NCBI GenBank assembly: GCA_017628755.1
Contig: JAGBYM010000080.1
Span: 1-35,132, forward strand
Reading direction: 5' to 3'
Source: Clostridia bacterium
GTDB lineage: Bacteria; Bacillota; Clostridia; Oscillospirales; CAG-272
Length of the DNA: 35,132 nucleotides
The notes under the pieces: model-generated
What the model was told of the DNA's origin: nothing
Databases searched by the model: none
The model's input: only the letters and a program-made list of their open reading frames with translations
Made by a program: the position numbers and the translations under genes
In this document: positions 25,528 through 35,132 of the stretch, piece by piece
How the letters are laid out: every line of letters starts with the position of its first letter
Position numbering within the stretch: position 1 is the first letter of the stretch

Positions 25528-25556
25528 ATTATACTCTAAAATAGAATTAATTTCAA
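25528..25556 (-). promoter_or_regulatory. Promoter of the ireB-ribF operon
   Basis: On the minus strand TTGAAA (25551-25556) and TATAAT (25528-25533) with 17-base spacing. Confidence 0.8.
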
Positions 25557-25657: not shown

Positions 25658-25686
25658 TTGACAGTTGTAAAAAAATAGGTTATAAT
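25658..25686 (+). promoter_or_regulatory. Promoter of the TerB-ATPase-helicase operon
   Basis: TTGACA (25658-25663) and TATAAT (25681-25686) with 17-base spacing, a perfect vegetative consensus. A second TATAAT follows at 25689-25694. Confidence 0.85.
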
Positions 25687-25720
25687 GATATAATACCTGA
25701 AATGAGAGGAGGACTCGGCT

Positions 25721-27367
25721 TTGTCGGATAAAGAGAAAAGAAATGCCATAGATGATTTCTGGAATATAGACTCACTTGTGCCTAAAAAGCGTACACCCGC
25801 GGTATTTGACGATAAGCATACCGAAGCCGCAGAGATCGAGATTCCTCTGCCCGGTAAAGAAGCACAGAATGCCCCGAAAACCGAGAAGATTCCCGAAGAC
25901 AGTGTGATAAAAAGATATATTCATCCGCATACCGCAGAGAGCGAAAAGAAAAAGGTTCCTGACGAGGAATATACTCCCGAAAACTCTCTTATTCATTCCG
26001 TACGCTTGTATTCATGGAGTAGTGCATATCCCTATTACGAGCAATTCAGACGCGCAGCGATCTTTTATTATAACAAGACCTCGCATAAGGTTGAGGCTGA
26101 GCCTTACTTTTCGTATATGCCGCAGTATTCACAGCTGAATGACCGTCAGCTAGCGTACTATCTTTGGTTCAGAAGCGAGATACGTGCCGGAAGATATCCT
26201 TCGGTAGATTACAGTTATATTTTGCTTTTGATATACGAAACTATAAATCTTTCGGATAAACTGCCGAGGGAGAGAAGTGTTGATCTTCTTGCAAATCTCT
26301 GGCTTAATTACAGAGAGGATTATCCTCGCCTTGACGTTCAGCTCTCCGAGTGGATCTTCGATATGTGTCTTCTTGGTAAGATGGAGCCTCCGCGTGACAT
26401 ACTCGGTGTTGTTGGAAATTCGCTTCCGGCTACCGCGGGTCTCCGTGAGTTTTACGCCGATGCAGTAGGAGATGCCGGTGCGTTTGCATCCTTGCTTATC
26501 CGCCATTGTTCGAATTACAATTTCAAAAAAAGCAAATTCGCCGTCGGAGAACATGTTGATCTTTACAAGAAACACATGCACGGTGTGCTTGCATATATGA
26601 TCTCAAAGAGTAATGACCCGGCTCACCCATTTGAATTTGCGGGGCTGAAGCTCCAGGACAGCCGTACACAGCGCGATACCTATACCGGCGCACTCTGCAG
26701 CCCGAAAGTGAAAAAGCGCATAGAGATCGAATTTTGCTCCTTCTCGCATTCGCATGAATTGCGTTTTATAGTGACAGATATCCTGAAATACGCTGAAAAC
26801 CGTATCCGTGCGCATATCGGTGTGAAATCGAGACTGTCGCTCAATGCGCTTCCGGCTGGTATCAAGGCTCTTGCGGAAGAATATTTTAACCGAGAATTGC
26901 CGATCAGAAGCGTTCACCCAAGCGTAAAAGACGAAGTTCCCGAGTACGAAAAGCTTTATGAGCCCACATCAAGCGGACTCTCGTTTGATTCCGCAGCAAA
27001 GATAGAAGCCCTTTCTTGGGAGACTACCGAAAAGCTTGTCGAAACATTTGTAGATGAAGAAAATCCTATAATACTCGAACCCGAGAATATTCCGGAACCT
27101 GTTGAAGAAGAGTCGGAAACGGATTTTATTGATGGCTTGAGCGACTCCGAAAAAGAGTTTGTTTTAGCAGCACTTGAGGGCGACGGATCTAAGCAGTCCG
27201 CCATAGCGGCTCGCGAATCGTCGCTTCCCGATATAATCGCCGATAGGATCAACACCCTTGCCGCGGATATATTCGGAGATATTATACTTGAGGATCTGGG
27301 CGGAAGCTACGGAGTCCTTGAGGATTATGAAGAAGAATTGAGAGGAGCATTGGAAAATGGAAAATAA
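25721..27367 (+). CDS. TerB_N / TerB_C domain protein
   Basis: A 548-residue protein. Residues 1-85 are charged and probably disordered. Residues about 88-300 match the TerB_N pattern (SYMPQYSQLNDRQLAYYLWF, RSEIRAGRYPSVDYSYILL, LIYETINL). The last 150 residues resemble TerB_C, with LSWETTEKLVETF, ADRINTLAADIFGDIILED and an acidic end. No membrane segment or nuclease motif is seen. The start is TTG, supported by GGAGG eight bases upstream and by the consensus promoter. It overlaps the BrxD-like ATPase gene by 11 bases. TerB-related domains occur with stress-response and DNA-processing genes, and the neighbours here point to the DNA-processing side. The biochemical role is unknown. Confidence 0.85.
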   Translation: MSDKEKRNAIDDFWNIDSLVPKKRTPAVFDDKHTEAAEIEIPLPGKEAQNAPKTEKIPEDSVIKRYIHPHTAESEKKKVPDEEYTPENSLIHSVRLYSWSSAYPYYEQFRRAAIFYYNKTSHKVEAEPYFSYMPQYSQLNDRQLAYYLWFRSEIRAGRYPSVDYSYILLLIYETINLSDKLPRERSVDLLANLWLNYREDYPRLDVQLSEWIFDMCLLGKMEPPRDILGVVGNSLPATAGLREFYADAVGDAGAFASLLIRHCSNYNFKKSKFAVGEHVDLYKKHMHGVLAYMISKSNDPAHPFEFAGLKLQDSRTQRDTYTGALCSPKVKKRIEIEFCSFSHSHELRFIVTDILKYAENRIRAHIGVKSRLSLNALPAGIKALAEEYFNRELPIRSVHPSVKDEVPEYEKLYEPTSSGLSFDSAAKIEALSWETTEKLVETFVDEENPIILEPENIPEPVEEESETDFIDGLSDSEKEFVLAALEGDGSKQSAIAARESSLPDIIADRINTLAADIFGDIILEDLGGSYGVLEDYEEELRGALENGK

Positions 27368-28712
27368 GAATCAGAAGATACCGAAAAGAATACTGTCATC
27401 GCTGATAGCATCGGTTTCCGCGGGAGTTGTTCCGCGCTCGGGTGCTCCTTACATTGCAATAGGCAGACACGATGAGATAAATGCTTTACTTTCCGATCTT
27501 GAACTTATGAACGAGGGCGGCGGAAGCATGCGTTTCCTTGTCGGCAGATACGGAAGCGGAAAAAGCTTTTTGATGCAGCTTATCAGAGGATATGCTCTTG
27601 AACGCGATTTTCTTACCGCGGACTGTGACCTTTCGCCCGAACGCCGTCTCTACGGAAGCGGAGGTGCGGGAGTCGCAACCTACAGAGAGCTCATGAAGAA
27701 TCTTGCATCAAAAGCCGCGCCCGACGGCGGAGCTATGCCAAAGATCATTGCTAAATGGGTATTTTCTCTGCAAGGCGAGCTTATAGCCGAAGGCATTACT
27801 CCCGATTCACCTCAGTTTTCTCCCAAGCTCGATGCGAAGCTTTTTGAAAGTCTGCGTGAAATAGAATTTCTTGTCGGCGGTTTCGATTTTTCGAGAGTTA
27901 TCGGCGAATACTACCGCGCAACTCAGCGCGGAGACGATCTTCGCGCCGCATCCTGCTTACGTTGGCTGAGAGGTGAGTTTTCTACCAAAACCGAGGCTCG
28001 AAGAGAGCTCGGATTTGACGTTTCCGCAATAATCGGAGACAACAACTGGTATGATTTCCTCAAGCTTTGGGCGTCTCTTTCACGCGCTATGGGATACCGC
28101 GGATTGCTCGTGTTCATTGATGAATGTGTAAATCTGTACAAGATCCCTCACCGTGTCTCGCGTGAAAATAACTATGAAAAAATTCTTTCGATGTTTAATG
28201 ATACCTTGCAGGGAAGAGCTCCCCATCTCGGTCTTGTGCTCGGCGGAACACCGCAGTTTCTCGAAGATCCGCGCCGTGGTCTATTCAGTTACGAAGCTCT
28301 CAGAAGCCGTCTTTGTGACAGCAGATTCGCATCGGAAAAGCATAAGAACTTTGTCGGTCCAGTAATCAGACTCACCAGACTTTCTGATGATGAGCTTTTG
28401 GCTCTTGTCGTCCGTATGACCTCCCTTCACGGACAGAATTTCTCATGGGAACCGAGAATCACAAGAGACGAACAGGTTAAATTCGTGCAGATATGTCTCG
28501 ATCGCGCGGGTGCAAATATGATGATAACTCCGCGTGAAATGCTCCGCGATTATATGACTCTGCTCAATATACTCATGCAGAACCCGAATGTCGATTTTAA
28601 CGCGATTGTCGGAACCGCCGTTACTCTCAAAACCGATGCGGAAGAAGATGTGCCCGCAAAGACCGAGGATGCACCGCGCTCGAAATTCGATCCCGAAGAT
28701 ATTGATTTCTGA
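27357..28712 (+). CDS. BrxD-like ATPase (DUF2791, BREX ATP-binding domain)
   Basis: A 451-residue AAA-type P-loop ATPase. The N terminus RILSSLIASVSAGVVPRSGAP and GRHDEINAL are characteristic of the BrxC/BrxD (DUF2791) family. Walker A is GRYGSGKS (63-70), Walker B is LLVFIDE (250-256), and a sensor-like GGTPQFLED follows, with a late RLTRLSDDELLALV segment. Length is close to BrxD. The last 30 residues are acidic. BrxD-type ATPases accompany Lhr-like helicases in some BREX systems. Here the partners are the TerB_N protein (11-base overlap) and the helicase (11-base gap). No PglX, PglZ, BrxC or BrxL gene is in the window. Confidence 0.85.
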   Translation: MENKNQKIPKRILSSLIASVSAGVVPRSGAPYIAIGRHDEINALLSDLELMNEGGGSMRFLVGRYGSGKSFLMQLIRGYALERDFLTADCDLSPERRLYGSGGAGVATYRELMKNLASKAAPDGGAMPKIIAKWVFSLQGELIAEGITPDSPQFSPKLDAKLFESLREIEFLVGGFDFSRVIGEYYRATQRGDDLRAASCLRWLRGEFSTKTEARRELGFDVSAIIGDNNWYDFLKLWASLSRAMGYRGLLVFIDECVNLYKIPHRVSRENNYEKILSMFNDTLQGRAPHLGLVLGGTPQFLEDPRRGLFSYEALRSRLCDSRFASEKHKNFVGPVIRLTRLSDDELLALVVRMTSLHGQNFSWEPRITRDEQVKFVQICLDRAGANMMITPREMLRDYMTLLNILMQNPNVDFNAIVGTAVTLKTDAEEDVPAKTEDAPRSKFDPEDIDF

Positions 28713-28723
28713 CGGAGGAAAAT

Positions 28724-30967
28724 ATGAATAATATCGATAGCGTATTCGAACGCTTTCCCGATTATATCAGGGAGTATATTTACAGCCATTCCTGGGACTC
28801 TTTGCGCGAGATACAGCTTCTAGCGGCAGACTCACTCTTTAATTCCGAAAACAATCTTCTCCTGACGTCCTCCACCGCATCGGGTAAGACAGAAGCAGCT
28901 TTCTTCCCGATACTTACAATGCTTGAAGGTAATCTCCCCGAAAGCGTTGCGGTTCTTTATATCGCGCCTCTCAAAAGCCTTATCAACGATCAGTTCGGAC
29001 GCATTGAAGAGCTCCTTGATATCTCGGGAATTCCTGTGACGCATTGGCATGGCGACGTAGCACAGTCGCATAAGAAAAAGTTGCTTGAAAAGCCCCGCGG
29101 AATCCTGCAGATTACTCCCGAGTCGCTCGAATCGATGCTTATGAATCGATCGAACGATCTTGTGCGTATCTTTTCAGGACTGATGTTCGTCGTAATAGAT
29201 GAGATCCACACCCTGACGGGTTCGGACAGAGGCAACCAGATCATCTGCCAGCTTTCAAGACTCGGCAGACTTATCGGTCATCACCCCCGCAGAATCGGAC
29301 TTTCCGCAACCGTCGGAGACACCGAACTTGCAGCTTCGTGGCTTGGCGCAGGAAGTGGAAGAGATACTGATGTACCCGTACCCACACCCGAAAAGCTCCG
29401 CTGGAGACTTGGAATGGAGCACTTCTATATACAGAACGATGCCCATCTCCAATCGGATGACGCAAGAAAGAACGTCGATGAAGGCGCATTAAAACGCGCT
29501 GTAATAGATGCGGGATACGAATACATTTATGATTGCGTGCGCGATAAGAAATCTCTTGTTTTCTCCAATTCGCGAGAGGAGACCGAATATATTACCGCAA
29601 CTCTGCGCCAGATAGCAAAGAATCGCGGAGACAAGGATATCTTCTTAATCCATCACGGAAATCTGTCCGCCTCTATACGTGAGGAAGCCGAACAGAAAAT
29701 GAAGGACGAAGATATCCATGCAGTAACTTGCGCGACGGTTACTATGGAGCTTGGAATTGATATCGGCAAGCTTGAAAGAGTAGTGCAGAATTCTTCACCG
29801 AATTCGGTTTCAAGTCTGCTTCAGCGCCTCGGACGCTCGGGCAGACGCGGACAGCCTCCCGAAATGATGCTTGTGTTCAGAGAAGAGGATCCGCTCCCCA
29901 ATACGCCTCTGCCTCAGCTTTTGCCCTGGGAACTGCTGCGTGCTATAGCAATTGTTCAGCTGTATATTGAGGAACGCTTCATCGAACCTCCGCGAATCAA
30001 AAAGCTTCCGTTCAGCCTTGCATTTCATCAGACCTTAAGCACTCTCGCTTCAAGCGGAGAACTGACTCCCCGTGCACTTGCGGAAAGAGTTCTCGGATTG
30101 CCTCCGCTTTCGAGAATTACCAAAGAGGATTATAAAACTCTGCTTATCTCGATGATCGAAAACGATTATATTGAGATGACAGAAGAAAAGGGACTAATTG
30201 TAGGTCTTGCAGGCGAGAGACTGATTTCAAGCTTCAAATTCTACGCAGTTTTCAAGGACAGCGAGGATTTTACCGTAAGACACGAATCCGAAGAAATCGG
30301 AACAATAACAACGCCTCCACCCGTAGGAGACCGTTTTGCGCTTGCGGGAAAGGTTTGGGAAGTCGAAGAGTTGGACGTTGCGCGTAAGCTTATATACGTA
30401 AAGCCGGTCGAAGGAAAAATGGAAGTTTCCTGGCCCGGTGATTACGGCGAGATCCATACAAAAATTCTCAAACGCATGCGCCGTGTTCTGGAAGAAGATA
30501 CCGTGTATCCATATCTCAAGCCTAACGCCGCGCACCGACTTGAAGTTGCTCGTCATCTTGCAAGAAACACGGGTATGCTCGAGCATTCAATCGTACACCT
30601 CGGCGGCTATTTATGGTGCATTTTTCCTTGGCTCGGTACACGATCGTTCAGAACATTCAGAAAGTTTTTGGCATCGCATGCCTTTGAATACCGTATAAGC
30701 GGTATTGAGCACGAAGCCGGAGCTTATATAACCTTCAAGATGGAACGCGGTAACGATTATGCTTTGGCTCAAGGACTGGCTTCTGCAGTTGAACGTGAAG
30801 GAATATCTCCGATGTCGCTTATCGGACAAGCGGAAAATCCCGTGTTTGATAAATATGATGAATATATTCCGAACTCGCTTCTGCAAAAGGCATATGCGGC
30901 AGATAAACTTGATCCCAATGAAGCCGCGGAACGTATCATCGAAATATATAAAGAATATAAAGAATAA
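28724..30967 (+). CDS. Lhr-like superfamily 2 DEAD/DEAH helicase (BrxHI-like)
   Basis: A 747-residue helicase. Motif I is TASGKTEA (51-58), motif Ia is APLKSLINDQ, motif II is DEIH (159-162), motif III is SAT (194-196), motif V is TMELGIDIG (about 340-348) and motif VI is QRLGRSGRRG (367-376). The C-terminal half (about 400-747) resembles the Lhr core winged-helix and beta region (VGDRFALAGKVWEVEELD) but lacks the long tail of Lhr. GGAGG lies seven bases before the ATG. It is the last gene of the TerB-ATPase-helicase operon and is followed by a terminator. It is expected to move on or unwind nucleic acid, probably with the upstream ATPase (inference). Confidence 0.92.
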   Translation: MNNIDSVFERFPDYIREYIYSHSWDSLREIQLLAADSLFNSENNLLLTSSTASGKTEAAFFPILTMLEGNLPESVAVLYIAPLKSLINDQFGRIEELLDISGIPVTHWHGDVAQSHKKKLLEKPRGILQITPESLESMLMNRSNDLVRIFSGLMFVVIDEIHTLTGSDRGNQIICQLSRLGRLIGHHPRRIGLSATVGDTELAASWLGAGSGRDTDVPVPTPEKLRWRLGMEHFYIQNDAHLQSDDARKNVDEGALKRAVIDAGYEYIYDCVRDKKSLVFSNSREETEYITATLRQIAKNRGDKDIFLIHHGNLSASIREEAEQKMKDEDIHAVTCATVTMELGIDIGKLERVVQNSSPNSVSSLLQRLGRSGRRGQPPEMMLVFREEDPLPNTPLPQLLPWELLRAIAIVQLYIEERFIEPPRIKKLPFSLAFHQTLSTLASSGELTPRALAERVLGLPPLSRITKEDYKTLLISMIENDYIEMTEEKGLIVGLAGERLISSFKFYAVFKDSEDFTVRHESEEIGTITTPPPVGDRFALAGKVWEVEELDVARKLIYVKPVEGKMEVSWPGDYGEIHTKILKRMRRVLEEDTVYPYLKPNAAHRLEVARHLARNTGMLEHSIVHLGGYLWCIFPWLGTRSFRTFRKFLASHAFEYRISGIEHEAGAYITFKMERGNDYALAQGLASAVEREGISPMSLIGQAENPVFDKYDEYIPNSLLQKAYAADKLDPNEAAERIIEIYKEYKE

Positions 30968-30972
30968 AAAGC

Positions 30973-31008
30973 AAACAGCCGATCGTCAGATACGGCTGTT
31001 TTCTTTTC
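30973..31008. terminator. Bidirectional terminator after the helicase gene
   Basis: AAACAGCCG (30973-30981) pairs with CGGCTGTTT (30993-31001), followed by TTCTTTTCTTT on the plus strand and a T-rich tail on the minus strand. The stop codon of the convergent small gene lies in its loop. Confidence 0.8.
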
Positions 31009-31246
31009 TTTCTCGTGCCAACAGATCAAGCAGAAGTGTTCCTGCCCAAAATATTATGTAAGTTGTCAGTATGTAATCGAGCATCGGGGCATAGTAGAGT
31101 TCGACTCCTGTACTTCCTATATTCACTTCAGCCTCGCATAAATAGTAAATTCCGCAGAGCGCAAGAATCACAAGTGACGCTCCGAATTTGTAAAAAGCAA
31201 TTTGCATTTTACCCATCTCCGAAAATGCTTTTATAATTTTTCTCAT
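30986..31246 (-). CDS. Small two-TM membrane protein, function unknown
   Basis: An 86-residue protein with two hydrophobic segments (about 17-38 and 54-76), a short polar loop between them and basic residues at both ends (MRKIIK and ARERKEN). It resembles no family I can name. AAAGGA lies about nine bases before the ATG, and a TTGAAC-17-TATAAT promoter is upstream. It converges on the helicase gene, and its last codons lie inside the shared terminator. The ribosome binding site, promoter and membrane topology support a real gene. Confidence 0.68.
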   Translation of the reverse strand: MRKIIKAFSEMGKMQIAFYKFGASLVILALCGIYYLCEAEVNIGSTGVELYYAPMLDYILTTYIIFWAGTLLLDLLARERKENSRI

Positions 31247-31611
31247 ATCTTAATTCCTTTGGTAATTAATGAATATTTTTGAATTATACATTTAAACATG
31301 TATGCAATTGTTTGTATTAATATTATAACATACAAAATTAAGCTGTTCAAGCGGTATATTTTACCGTTTGATATGCAATAAGAAATAATTATTTTATTAT
31401 ATCGACAGATTGTTACCCATTTAGGGGTTTGTCAGGATATAGAAAGAATGATAAATGTCGTACACAATGTCGCTGACTTGTCTTTGAATTTGCGAAATTG
31501 ATGATTCTTTTGTTCAGTTTGCATAAAAACAGTGATCCAATTTGGGAATTTCGACGAATAGAATAATATGATATAATAATACAAAAAGTGTCAAAAAGCG
31601 AGGAAAAGAAA
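31247..31611. other. AT-rich intergenic region (365 bp)
   Basis: It holds the minus-strand promoter at 31322-31350, an inverted repeat at 31352-31366, and a short direct repeat AATGTCG at 31454-31460 and 31466-31472. A TATAAT at 31572-31577 is the likely -10 box of the following small gene, with only a poor -35 match (TTCGAC, 31550-31555). I see no structured RNA, tRNA or convincing coding frame in 31371-31560. Confidence 0.5.
31322..31350 (-). promoter_or_regulatory. Promoter of the small membrane protein gene
   Basis: On the minus strand TTGAAC (31345-31350) and TATAAT (31322-31327) with 17-base spacing. An inverted repeat, CGGTA-N5-TACCG (31352-31366), lies directly upstream of the -35 box. 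Confidence 0.6.
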
Positions 31612-31878
31612 ATGAAGTGTATGAAAACAACAATAACTCTCCTGAGCGCGAATAAAAAGCACGTGTCTGATAAAGTTGTAGTTTACAGACTGTTTCATGT
31701 CTGCGGTTGCAAAGGTCAGCATTTTGCTATCAATGTTTCGATTGATAATGAAAGCAGTATTTGTAAATTCGGAAAGGACCGCGCTAAAGCTTATGATATA
31801 TATCGAAAAATTGTTAAGAATGGGGTTACTCCTTGCTGTTTGAGTGATATTGCAGAAGATTTTGAAAAAGACATATAA
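31612..31878 (+). CDS. Small cysteine-containing protein, possibly DUF6514-like
   Basis: An 88-residue soluble protein with six cysteines, including CGC near the middle and a CC pair (VTPCCLSDIAEDF) near the C terminus. The overall pattern, YRLF followed by a short beta-rich core and an acidic end with LSDIAEDFEKD, recalls the DUF6514 small-protein family of Clostridia; I am not certain. The start at 31612 has GAGG eight bases upstream; a GTG at 31588 lacks a site. It stands alone about 120 bases before nrdR. No function can be assigned. Confidence 0.62.
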   Translation: MKCMKTTITLLSANKKHVSDKVVVYRLFHVCGCKGQHFAINVSIDNESSICKFGKDRAKAYDIYRKIVKNGVTPCCLSDIAEDFEKDI

Positions 31879-33932: not shown

Positions 33933-35132
33933 TTAAGCGTTAAGTCTTGCCTCGAGAGCAGCAAGCTCTTCGTACATCTCAGCGGGAACGCGGTCGCCAA
34001 CGAGATTGTAGAATTCCTTGATGTTCTCAACATCCTCAAGCCAGGAAGCCTTGTCAACGGTGAGGAGGTCCTTGATGGTGTCAAGAGTAACATCCTCGAG
34101 ACCTTCAATGTTGATGTCTTCAGCCTTGGGAACGTAACCGATAGCGGTTTCAACAGCGTCAACCTTGTCTTCGCAACGAGCGAGGATCCAGTCAAGAACG
34201 CGGAGGTTGTCACCGAAGCCGGGCCAGATGAAGTGACCTTCGTCATCGGTACGGAACCAGTTAACGTGGAAGATCTTGGGAGCGTTGGGGATAACCTTAC
34301 CCATATCAACCCAGTGCTTCCAGTAGTCGCCCATGTTGTAACCAACGAAGGGACGCATAGCCATGGGATCGCGACGAACTACGCCGACTGCACCTGCAGC
34401 TGCTGCGGTAGTCTCGGAAGCCATGATGGAACCAACGAAGGAACCGTGCTTCCAGTCGAAGGACTGGTAAACCAGGGGAGCGGTCTTTGCGCGGCGTCCG
34501 CCGAATACGATTGCGGATACGGGAACACCCTTGAGGGAGTCGAACTCGGAAGAAATGCAGGGGCAGTTCTTTGCGAGAGCGGTGAAACGGCTGTTGGGAT
34601 GAGCGCCACAGGTGGACTTATCCTTCTTATCGAACTTGGTGCAGTCCCAAGGTCTGCCCTGCCAGTCGATAGCGTTGCCGGGTGTGGGAGGATTGTTATC
34701 GAGACCTTCCCACCAAACGGTATTGTTCTCGGTGTTGTGAACAACGTTGGTGAAGATGGTGTCACGCATGCAAGTAGCAAGAGCGTTGGGGTTGGACTTG
34801 TCGTTGGTACCGGGAGCAACGCCGAAGAATCCGTTCTCGGGGTTAACCGCCCAAAGTCTGCCATCCTGGCCAACACGAAGCCAAGCGATATCATCGCCTA
34901 CGCACCAAGTCTTATAGCCCTTATCCTTGTAAATCGAAGGTGGAATGAGCATTGCGAGGTTGGTCTTACCACAAGCAGAGGGGAATGCAGCACTTACGTA
35001 CTTAACCTCACCGTTGGGAGCTTCGATACCGAGAATGAGCATATGCTCTGCCATCCAGCCCTCTTTTCTACCGAGGTAGGATGCAATACGAAGAGCGAAG
35101 CACTTCTTACCTAGAAGAACGTTTCCACCGTA
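33933..35132 (-). CDS. pckG: Phosphoenolpyruvate carboxykinase (GTP), 5' end outside window
   Basis: The last 399 residues of a GTP-dependent PEP carboxykinase, which interconverts oxaloacetate and PEP. The open frame runs through the window edge: codons 35132-35055 read YGGNVLLGKKCFALRIAS and on to the internal Met at 35054, so that Met is not the start. The nucleotide-binding FPSACGKTNLAM, metal-binding GDDIAWL and FGGRRAKTAPLV are the GTP-enzyme motifs. About 200 N-terminal residues are missing compared with the usual 600. Here it may run in the anaplerotic or gluconeogenic direction opposite pyk (inference). Confidence 0.96.
   Translation of the reverse strand, partial: YGGNVLLGKKCFALRIASYLGRKEGWMAEHMLILGIEAPNGEVKYVSAAFPSACGKTNLAMLIPPSIYKDKGYKTWCVGDDIAWLRVGQDGRLWAVNPENGFFGVAPGTNDKSNPNALATCMRDTIFTNVVHNTENNTVWWEGLDNNPPTPGNAIDWQGRPWDCTKFDKKDKSTCGAHPNSRFTALAKNCPCISSEFDSLKGVPVSAIVFGGRRAKTAPLVYQSFDWKHGSFVGSIMASETTAAAAGAVGVVRRDPMAMRPFVGYNMGDYWKHWVDMGKVIPNAPKIFHVNWFRTDDEGHFIWPGFGDNLRVLDWILARCEDKVDAVETAIGYVPKAEDINIEGLEDVTLDTIKDLLTVDKASWLEDVENIKEFYNLVGDRVPAEMYEELAALEARLNA

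Follow-up and report, generated by a model that had tools for sequence, protein, structure and literature searches.

A chromosome-resident branch of the Shango system in gut Clostridia, inherited largely with its hosts

Introduction

The closest described relative of the locus studied here is the Shango system of Pseudomonas aeruginosa PA14, in which a TerB protein, an ATPase and a DEAD/DEAH helicase are encoded in that order; in PAO1 it lowered the plating of many, not all, phages 10-100-fold and protected liquid cultures (PMC10250203; this and the other papers cited are drawn on in excerpt). The PA14 copy is located in cDHS1, a variable defence hotspot (PMC10250203). Shango has also been reported to be co-located with restriction-modification genes outside defence islands (PMC10924106) and is among the systems listed in rumen genomes (PMC13356809). 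The Shango helicase SngC has been grouped with BrxHI, DruE and DpdJ (PMC12278908), and BrxD has been proposed to load or activate BrxHI in the manner of a replicative helicase loader (PMC12839542). The BrxD-BrxHI pair of type 2 BREX is homologous to the Shango ATPase SngB and to SngC. The SF2 helicases Lhr and YprA have their helicase core in common with SngC, which unlike them is linked to SngA and SngB by co-occurrence.

Here we describe a Shango operon, sngA-sngB-sngC, in a 35,132-nucleotide stretch of a Clostridia genome (G000:C100:1-35132, hereafter the window); the source assembly is 2.43 Mb in 170 contigs and 73% complete. We consider that the operon belongs to a chromosome-resident branch of Shango that is passed on mainly by vertical descent in a number of related gut Clostridia families and that would act by a loader-helicase mechanism, a reading to which we assign a probability of about 0.65. 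Shango itself is already known, and the possible novelty is the vertically inherited branch: among the papers listed in literature searches there was no report of such a branch in Clostridia and no paper on the mechanism of Shango.

Results

The three proteins of the operon are called SngA, SngB and SngC by PADLOC, whose models for these proteins are their best matches. SngB scores 529.9 bits with its own model and 157.7 with that for BrxD, and SngC 798 bits with its own model and 412.5 with that for BrxHI. With the NCBIfam BrxD equivalog SngB reaches 154.7 bits, below the cut-off of 350. The gene order is that of the tested PA14 system as given in the published excerpt. By these profile matches the operon is a Shango system (SngA-SngB-SngC) and, given the shared order and the published tests, therefore a new copy of a known one. 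An initial annotation, made from the sequence without database searches, had read the three genes as a compact nucleic-acid-processing or defence module with kinship to the BrxD-BrxHI pair. The domains bear this out, with TerB_C (2.1e-10) and TerB_N (4.5e-10) both above the Pfam cut-off in SngA, BrxC_BrxD (506 bits) in SngB, and DEAD and Helicase_C in SngC, as do the lower-scoring matches to BREX models; what did not stand is the treatment of the module as unnamed, since PADLOC identifies the known system that had been missed. The companions of BREX were not found either. The source genome, at 73% completeness, gave no match to PglZ (BrxZ) and only one BrxC_BrxD match, with no second BrxC/D; a complete BREX locus just outside the window, which would have refuted the initial annotation, was not seen. 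Across the host family, PglZ was matched in 8 of the 196 genomes (4 above cut-off), and no PglX/BrxX methyltransferase is present among the ten flanking genes scanned, no genome search having been made for PglX or PglW.

Shango is widespread in the host family. A SngB profile matched 138 of the 196 family genomes, 87 of the 116 good ones and 55 of 71 genera, a few of the 87 copies being of a scattered lineage described below. The same profile matched 42 of 197 genomes of an order sample at E <= 1e-60 and 36 of 299 genomes of a phylum sample at E <= 0.001; 16 of the latter are strong carriers, among them the source genome and G286 (gene in two pieces), G152, G228 and G342 reached 138-222 bits in matches that span the greater part of the profile, and all others fell below 81 bits. 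As the initial annotation had expected, the three genes co-occur. Among 59 relatives, the source genome included, SngA was found in 34, SngB in 33 and SngC in 34, with all three in 33 genomes, none in 25 and a partial set in one (G032). The last carries SngC (G032:C49:5079-7280, L124) together with an N-terminal piece of sngA, and no SngB was detected in it; because the piece sits at a contig edge, an assembly gap is likely. In the family as a whole SngC was found in 131 genomes at E <= 1e-100. Both SngB and SngC are present in 129 of the 140 family genomes that hold either, with SngB only in nine and SngC only in two. Some of the SngB-only cases are effects of this cut-off or of assembly, as in G006, where a piece of SngC was found. 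The Fisher tests used on these presence counts and on the tree rows below ignore relatedness. Among individual loci, sngC was seen without a detected sngB at G456:C35:4738-6900, and stop codons are reported within the sngC matches G024:C90:18198-20474, G029:C35:56769-58997 and G030:C1:12649-14883, where they may mark the end of the match, genuine breaks or errors of assembly.

Within the genus, 12 of 13 genomes carry all three genes at a common left border. ireB lies to the left of sngA in 11 of the 12 carriers, the twelfth (G004) meeting a contig end there, and ribF follows in those 11 except G009, again at the end of its contig. On the right, nrdR is found in G000, G012, G009 and G003, and there is none in the 3.9-6.9 kb beyond sngC in G004, G010 and G011; therefore only the left border is common genus-wide. 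In the thirteenth genome, G008, nrdR-orf96-orf86 and ireB-ribF-pbp5 are directly joined, leaving a clean empty site. As G008 lies inside the genus on the rpoB tree (support 95-100), the absence is a loss. Other family genomes of the relatives set without any sng gene are G015 and G027, G022, G031 and G033; an ancestor of the family that carried the system would imply roughly four further losses among them. Together with G008, these six genomes occupy about five places on the rpoB tree.

The phylogenies of SngB and SngC suggest that the branch has descended largely with its hosts. The rpoB tree holds 52 of the 59 relatives; G016, G049 and G058 had no match, G004 only fragments, G039, G044 and G046 were not included, and G001 fills less than half of the columns. 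Across 26 genomes, SngC recovered 6 of 13 strong rpoB splits and strongly contradicted none, with a distance correlation of 0.72 (best of 2000 permutations, 0.46), and SngB recovered 7 of 14 strong splits with a correlation of 0.70 (best permutation, 0.44), in a comparison that omits G018, G020, G041 and G050 (foreign branches) and G040 (cut-short SngC, long branch) and so favours vertical descent. A wider SngB tree of 76 rows was built by a quick method from the SngB of 33 relatives, 14 of the 15 other strong phylum carriers (G286 left out), 20 of 32 new order-sample carriers, three plasmids and six further genomes of the host family (f1) picked mostly for high SngB score. In this tree 29 of the 35 f1 rows form one f1-only clade (98) that includes the SngB of the window. 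The f17 rows form one clade (96) and the f6 rows another (100), both joined with the f1 clade (99), and f16 stands beside these three with weaker support (89). In a separate clade of 21 rows (100), six f1 rows are mixed with rows of families f2, f7, f10, f20 and f23 and of hosts that do not belong to the order. The tree therefore points to two modes: one branch is resident and follows host families, and the other is scattered. The shared ireB border, the empty site, the family-wide presence and this tree uphold the suggestion of the initial annotation that the operon is a resident chromosomal function.

On mobile elements, a SngB-like gene, counted by a SngB match alone, occurs in 692 plasmid records, of which 542 are predicted conjugative. 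Klebsiella (449) and Salmonella (144) account for most of the records, with identities of about 36%, and the weakest matches include a BREX gene. The A-B-C order was also seen on the three plasmids inspected, from Paenibacillus, Aeromonas and Mesorhizobium, the last adjoining transposases. None of 50,697 phage records gave a SngB match.

A further feature of the resident branch is that its genes may be separated and still be retained. In G016, G019, G021, G024, G025, G026 and G040, sngC is on another contig than sngAB and different genes follow sngB, and in G029 sngA is apart from the other sng genes. In 69 of the 129 family genomes where SngB and SngC were both found, the two genes are adjacent; 9 have them farther apart on a single contig and 51 on different contigs. 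Contig ends cannot explain 21 of these 51 (sngB on the minus strand with >3 kb downstream), nor the inspected cases G021, G025 and G026. The arrangement sngA-sngB-alaS recurs in G019, G021, G024 and G026 (L047, L049, L051, L052), which represent four genera with otherwise differing gene order and form one rpoB clade (98). Among the sngB loci on named contigs (best 80 of 581), 19 lack sngC although the contig continues for 3 kb or more downstream. Six of these 19 have alaS within 400 bases after sngB, some being the same genomes as the cases just given. In the 76-row tree, 14 of the 42 resident rows lack sngC next to sngB and none of the 34 other rows does; the Fisher test excluded 3 resident rows, in which the contig ends. 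For eight of the 14, sngC is elsewhere in the genome (G016, G019, G021, G024, G025, G026, G040, G485); in G370 it was not found by the family SngC search, which did not take in G527, G545, G553, G582 and G653. That separated genes are retained, and that G015, G027 and G033 lack the whole set, argues that sngABC work as one unit. The stand-alone sngC lies 1-3 genes after the 6-phosphofructokinase gene (pfkA) at L119 and L120, in two genera (G021, G019). The SngC match of G040 (L123, G040:C112) covers residues 262-741 only and is preceded by a frame that looks unlike SngC; truncation, fusion or misassembly would account for this.

The features of the window operon are collected in Table 1. The compact plus-strand layout described initially agrees with the open reading frames (ORFs), sngA and sngB overlapping by 11 bases and sngB and sngC being 11 bases apart. 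Its perfect consensus promoter and its own terminator were likewise recovered. The promoter is the single 12/12 site upstream of sngA; the region holds 12 promoter-like sites, a number that is uninformative because shuffled sequences average 9.3. The terminator is absent from the output of the consensus scan and is supported by folding, the segment 30966-31012 reaching -19.9 kcal/mol (z -6.6), which was equalled by 0 of 200 shuffles.

Table 1. Features of the Shango operon in the window
Feature	Position	Strand	Basis or remark
Sigma-70 promoter, TTGACA-17-TATAAT	25658..25686	+	12/12 consensus, 17-base spacer
Ribosome-binding site, AGGAGG	25707..25712	+	8 bases 5' of the sngA TTG start, read from sequence
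sngA, TerB_N/TerB_C protein, 548 aa	25721..27367	+	PADLOC SngA 3e-47, residues 74-542
sngA codons 11-23, DDFWNIDSLVPKK, N-terminal motif of a resident-branch subset	25751..25789	+	Alignment; poorly conserved stretch after it
TerB_N domain of SngA, residues 107-218	26039..26374	+	Pfam; best conserved SngA region
TerB_C domain of SngA, residues 412-541	26954..27343	+	Pfam
sngB, BrxC/BrxD-family ATPase, 451 aa	27357..28712	+	PADLOC SngB 1.4e-159; Pfam BrxC_BrxD
GRYGSGKS of SngB, presumed Walker A, residues 63-70	27543..27566	+	7/8 positions invariant, n=14 SngB
Acidic pair D255 E256 of SngB	28119..28124	+	Invariant, n=14 SngB
sngC, Lhr/BrxHI-like SF2 helicase, 747 aa	28724..30967	+	PADLOC SngC 2.7e-240; Pfam DEAD and Helicase_C
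STASGKTEA of SngC, residues 50-58	28871..28897	+	8/9 columns kept in 31/33 SngC rows
DEIH of SngC, residues 159-162	29198..29209	+	D, E and H kept in 32/33 rows
Intrinsic terminator, hairpin and T-rich tail	30973..31012	+	Folding

The motifs of the ATPase and the helicase are intact. We take D255 E256 of SngB to be its Walker B, and STASGKTEA and DEIH of SngC to be helicase motifs I and II. SngB gave two weak matches in a PDB sequence search (E 0.03 and 0.13), and the best for SngC were YprA (2.5e-27) and the ATP-dependent DNA helicases 5v9x (3.1e-26) and 7lhl (1.4e-25), both presumably Lhr. SngA is the variable member, most of all in its N-terminal stretch and in a linker inside TerB_C. Many resident SngA proteins open with a DDFWxIxxLxPKK-like motif, found, when counted with a looser pattern around FW, in 24 of 40 resident and 1 of 30 other SngA (the sequences cover all but two of the 42 resident rows and all but four of the 34 others). 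This motif may be a docking peptide; it is missing from 7 of 12 genus members.

Compared with G012, G009 and G001, respectively, identity is 93, 95 and 89% for SngB, 92, 90 and 89% for SngC and 79, 73 and 66% for SngA. Among the comparators, pyk (90 and 90%) and nrdR (93 and 95%) were compared with G012 and G009, and ribF (77 and 72%) and pbp5 (76 and 70%) with G012 and G001. SngA thus diverges faster than SngB and SngC, at a rate similar to ribF and pbp5; the claim is held to this comparison and does not extend to positive selection on SngA, as most synonymous distances are either close to 2 or undefined.

The genes around the operon look like housekeeping genes. On the left, and divergent from it, are ireB, ribF and a D,D-carboxypeptidase gene; on the right, two small ORFs precede nrdR, pyk and pckG. 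A Pfam scan of ten flanking genes matched nine (radA-like ATPase, phosphoesterase, amidase, carboxypeptidase, ribF and ireB on one side, nrdR, pyk and pckG on the other) and left one small ORF unmatched. No mobility domain was found among the ten, and the GC content at third codon positions (GC3) of sngA, sngB and sngC (0.455, 0.473 and 0.467) falls within that of the other listed window genes (0.33-0.64), so that the initial remarks on absent mobility genes and on codon use like that of the neighbours were sound. The two small ORFs between sngC and nrdR (window 30986-31246 and 31588-31878) evolve fast. As orf86 and orf96 are also present at the empty site of G008, they were rejected as parts of Shango.

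Discussion

Given the identity of the three proteins, a mechanism for the resident Shango system can be proposed. SngA, through its TerB domains, would recognise a trigger or dock partners, and SngB, as an ORC/Cdc6-like AAA+ ATPase, would load the Lhr/BrxHI-type SF2 helicase SngC, much as proposed for BrxD and BrxHI. SngC might then be placed on foreign or replicating phage DNA and unwind or strip it, so that replication would fail. As there is no methyltransferase among the three genes, self and non-self would more likely be distinguished through the structure of the DNA or its state of replication than through methylation. Under this scheme the copy in the window would defend its host. Relative to PA14 Shango, this copy differs in standing in a housekeeping neighbourhood, in belonging to a branch that follows host families and in that the sngC of that branch is often elsewhere.

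Several observations weigh against this reading. Regarding the locus, the 4.4, 6.9 and 3.9 kb that follow sngC in G004, G010 and G011, respectively, contain no nrdR. SngB conflicts with rpoB at 2 of its 14 strong splits, and the scattered lineage is found in 2 of 29 f1 carriers of the relatives set and in four picked genomes; therefore transfer does occur in the host family, the frequency being estimated by the 2 of 29 and not by the 6 of 35 f1 rows of the wide tree, as six of those genomes were picked. Nine family genomes had SngB and, at the cut-off used, no SngC. As for the proteins, the PDB sequence search with SngA gave a single match at E 0.35 and thus no convincing solved relative, and PADLOC, Pfam and NCBIfam sequence scans found no nuclease domain in SngA, SngB or SngC. 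That SngB and SngC appear as conserved as pyk and nrdR would suit housekeeping too. Finally, the excerpted literature presents Shango as island-borne, in E. coli genomic islands (PMC11096173) and in the variable hotspot of PA14 (PMC10250203), and as over-represented in prophages (PMC13064858).

The most substantial of the other explanations is that resident Shango serves to maintain DNA, as a domesticated or primary system for fork restart, repair or the clearing of DNA structures, with defence as a side effect or as a derived use by the mobile branch. The family-wide distribution with one match in most genomes, and the conservation of SngB and SngC at the level of pyk and nrdR, are what such a role would lead one to expect; so is the movement of the genes into other neighbourhoods while being kept together in the genome, with sngC not beside sngB in the 14 resident rows and in none of the others. 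However, the system is not essential, as the empty site of G008 and the lack of all the genes in G015, G022, G027, G031 and G033 indicate, SngA diverges faster than its partners, and a relative of the same architecture, that of PA14, is by the excerpted account a proven defence system. We regard a maintenance role as unlikely, though it deserves to be kept in mind. A related and equally tentative proposal is that resident Shango provides a group of gut Clostridia families with a core chromosomal function, in which an Lhr-type helicase loaded by an AAA+ ATPase would police replication intermediates. Such a system would be vertically inherited, split into housekeeping neighbourhoods (e.g. upstream of alaS) and kept as a unit, the mobile anti-phage Shango being its source or its escaped form. 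If this were true, a defence system would have been caught as, or in the course of becoming, housekeeping.

A recently acquired mobile cassette would fit the abundance of SngB-like genes on plasmid records, most of them predicted conjugative, and the existence of a scattered Shango lineage in the host family itself. Against it stand the genus-wide left border with an empty site in one nested species, the ten flanking genes free of mobility domains, GC3 like that of the neighbours, the place of the window SngB in the 29-row f1-only clade and the lack of any match in phage records. It was rejected on the shared locus, the G008 empty site, the phage result and the SngB tree, and is very improbable. 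Poorer still is the case for a degenerate or partial BREX (Pgl) locus, which has in its favour that SngB is a BrxC_BrxD family ATPase and that SngC resembles BrxHI. As the Shango models outscore the BREX models by hundreds of bits, the NCBIfam BrxD cut-off is missed, PglZ is rare in the family and was not matched in the source genome (73% complete), and a single BrxC/D gene is found there, a BREX remnant was rejected and is scarcely credible.

A resident Shango branch of largely vertical descent is of interest because defence systems are commonly regarded as cargo that moves rapidly, and here the system is found in three quarters of the good family genomes. Since it follows its hosts for the most part and retains its components where the genes are separated, it becomes testable whether a defence system can settle into a core DNA function. 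In addition, a large alignment of vertically inherited copies helps to find the working parts of Shango, such as the N-terminal FW motif of SngA.

Two minor features of the window concern neighbouring genes. On the minus strand, about 100 bases from the sng promoter, a TTGAAA-17-TATAAT site (11/12; window 25528-25556) is likely the promoter of the divergent ireB-ribF operon. pckG (window 33933-35054) has a synonymous distance (dS) of 0.34 relative to G012, while most neighbours are saturated, and a GC3 of 0.61; it is probably highly expressed.

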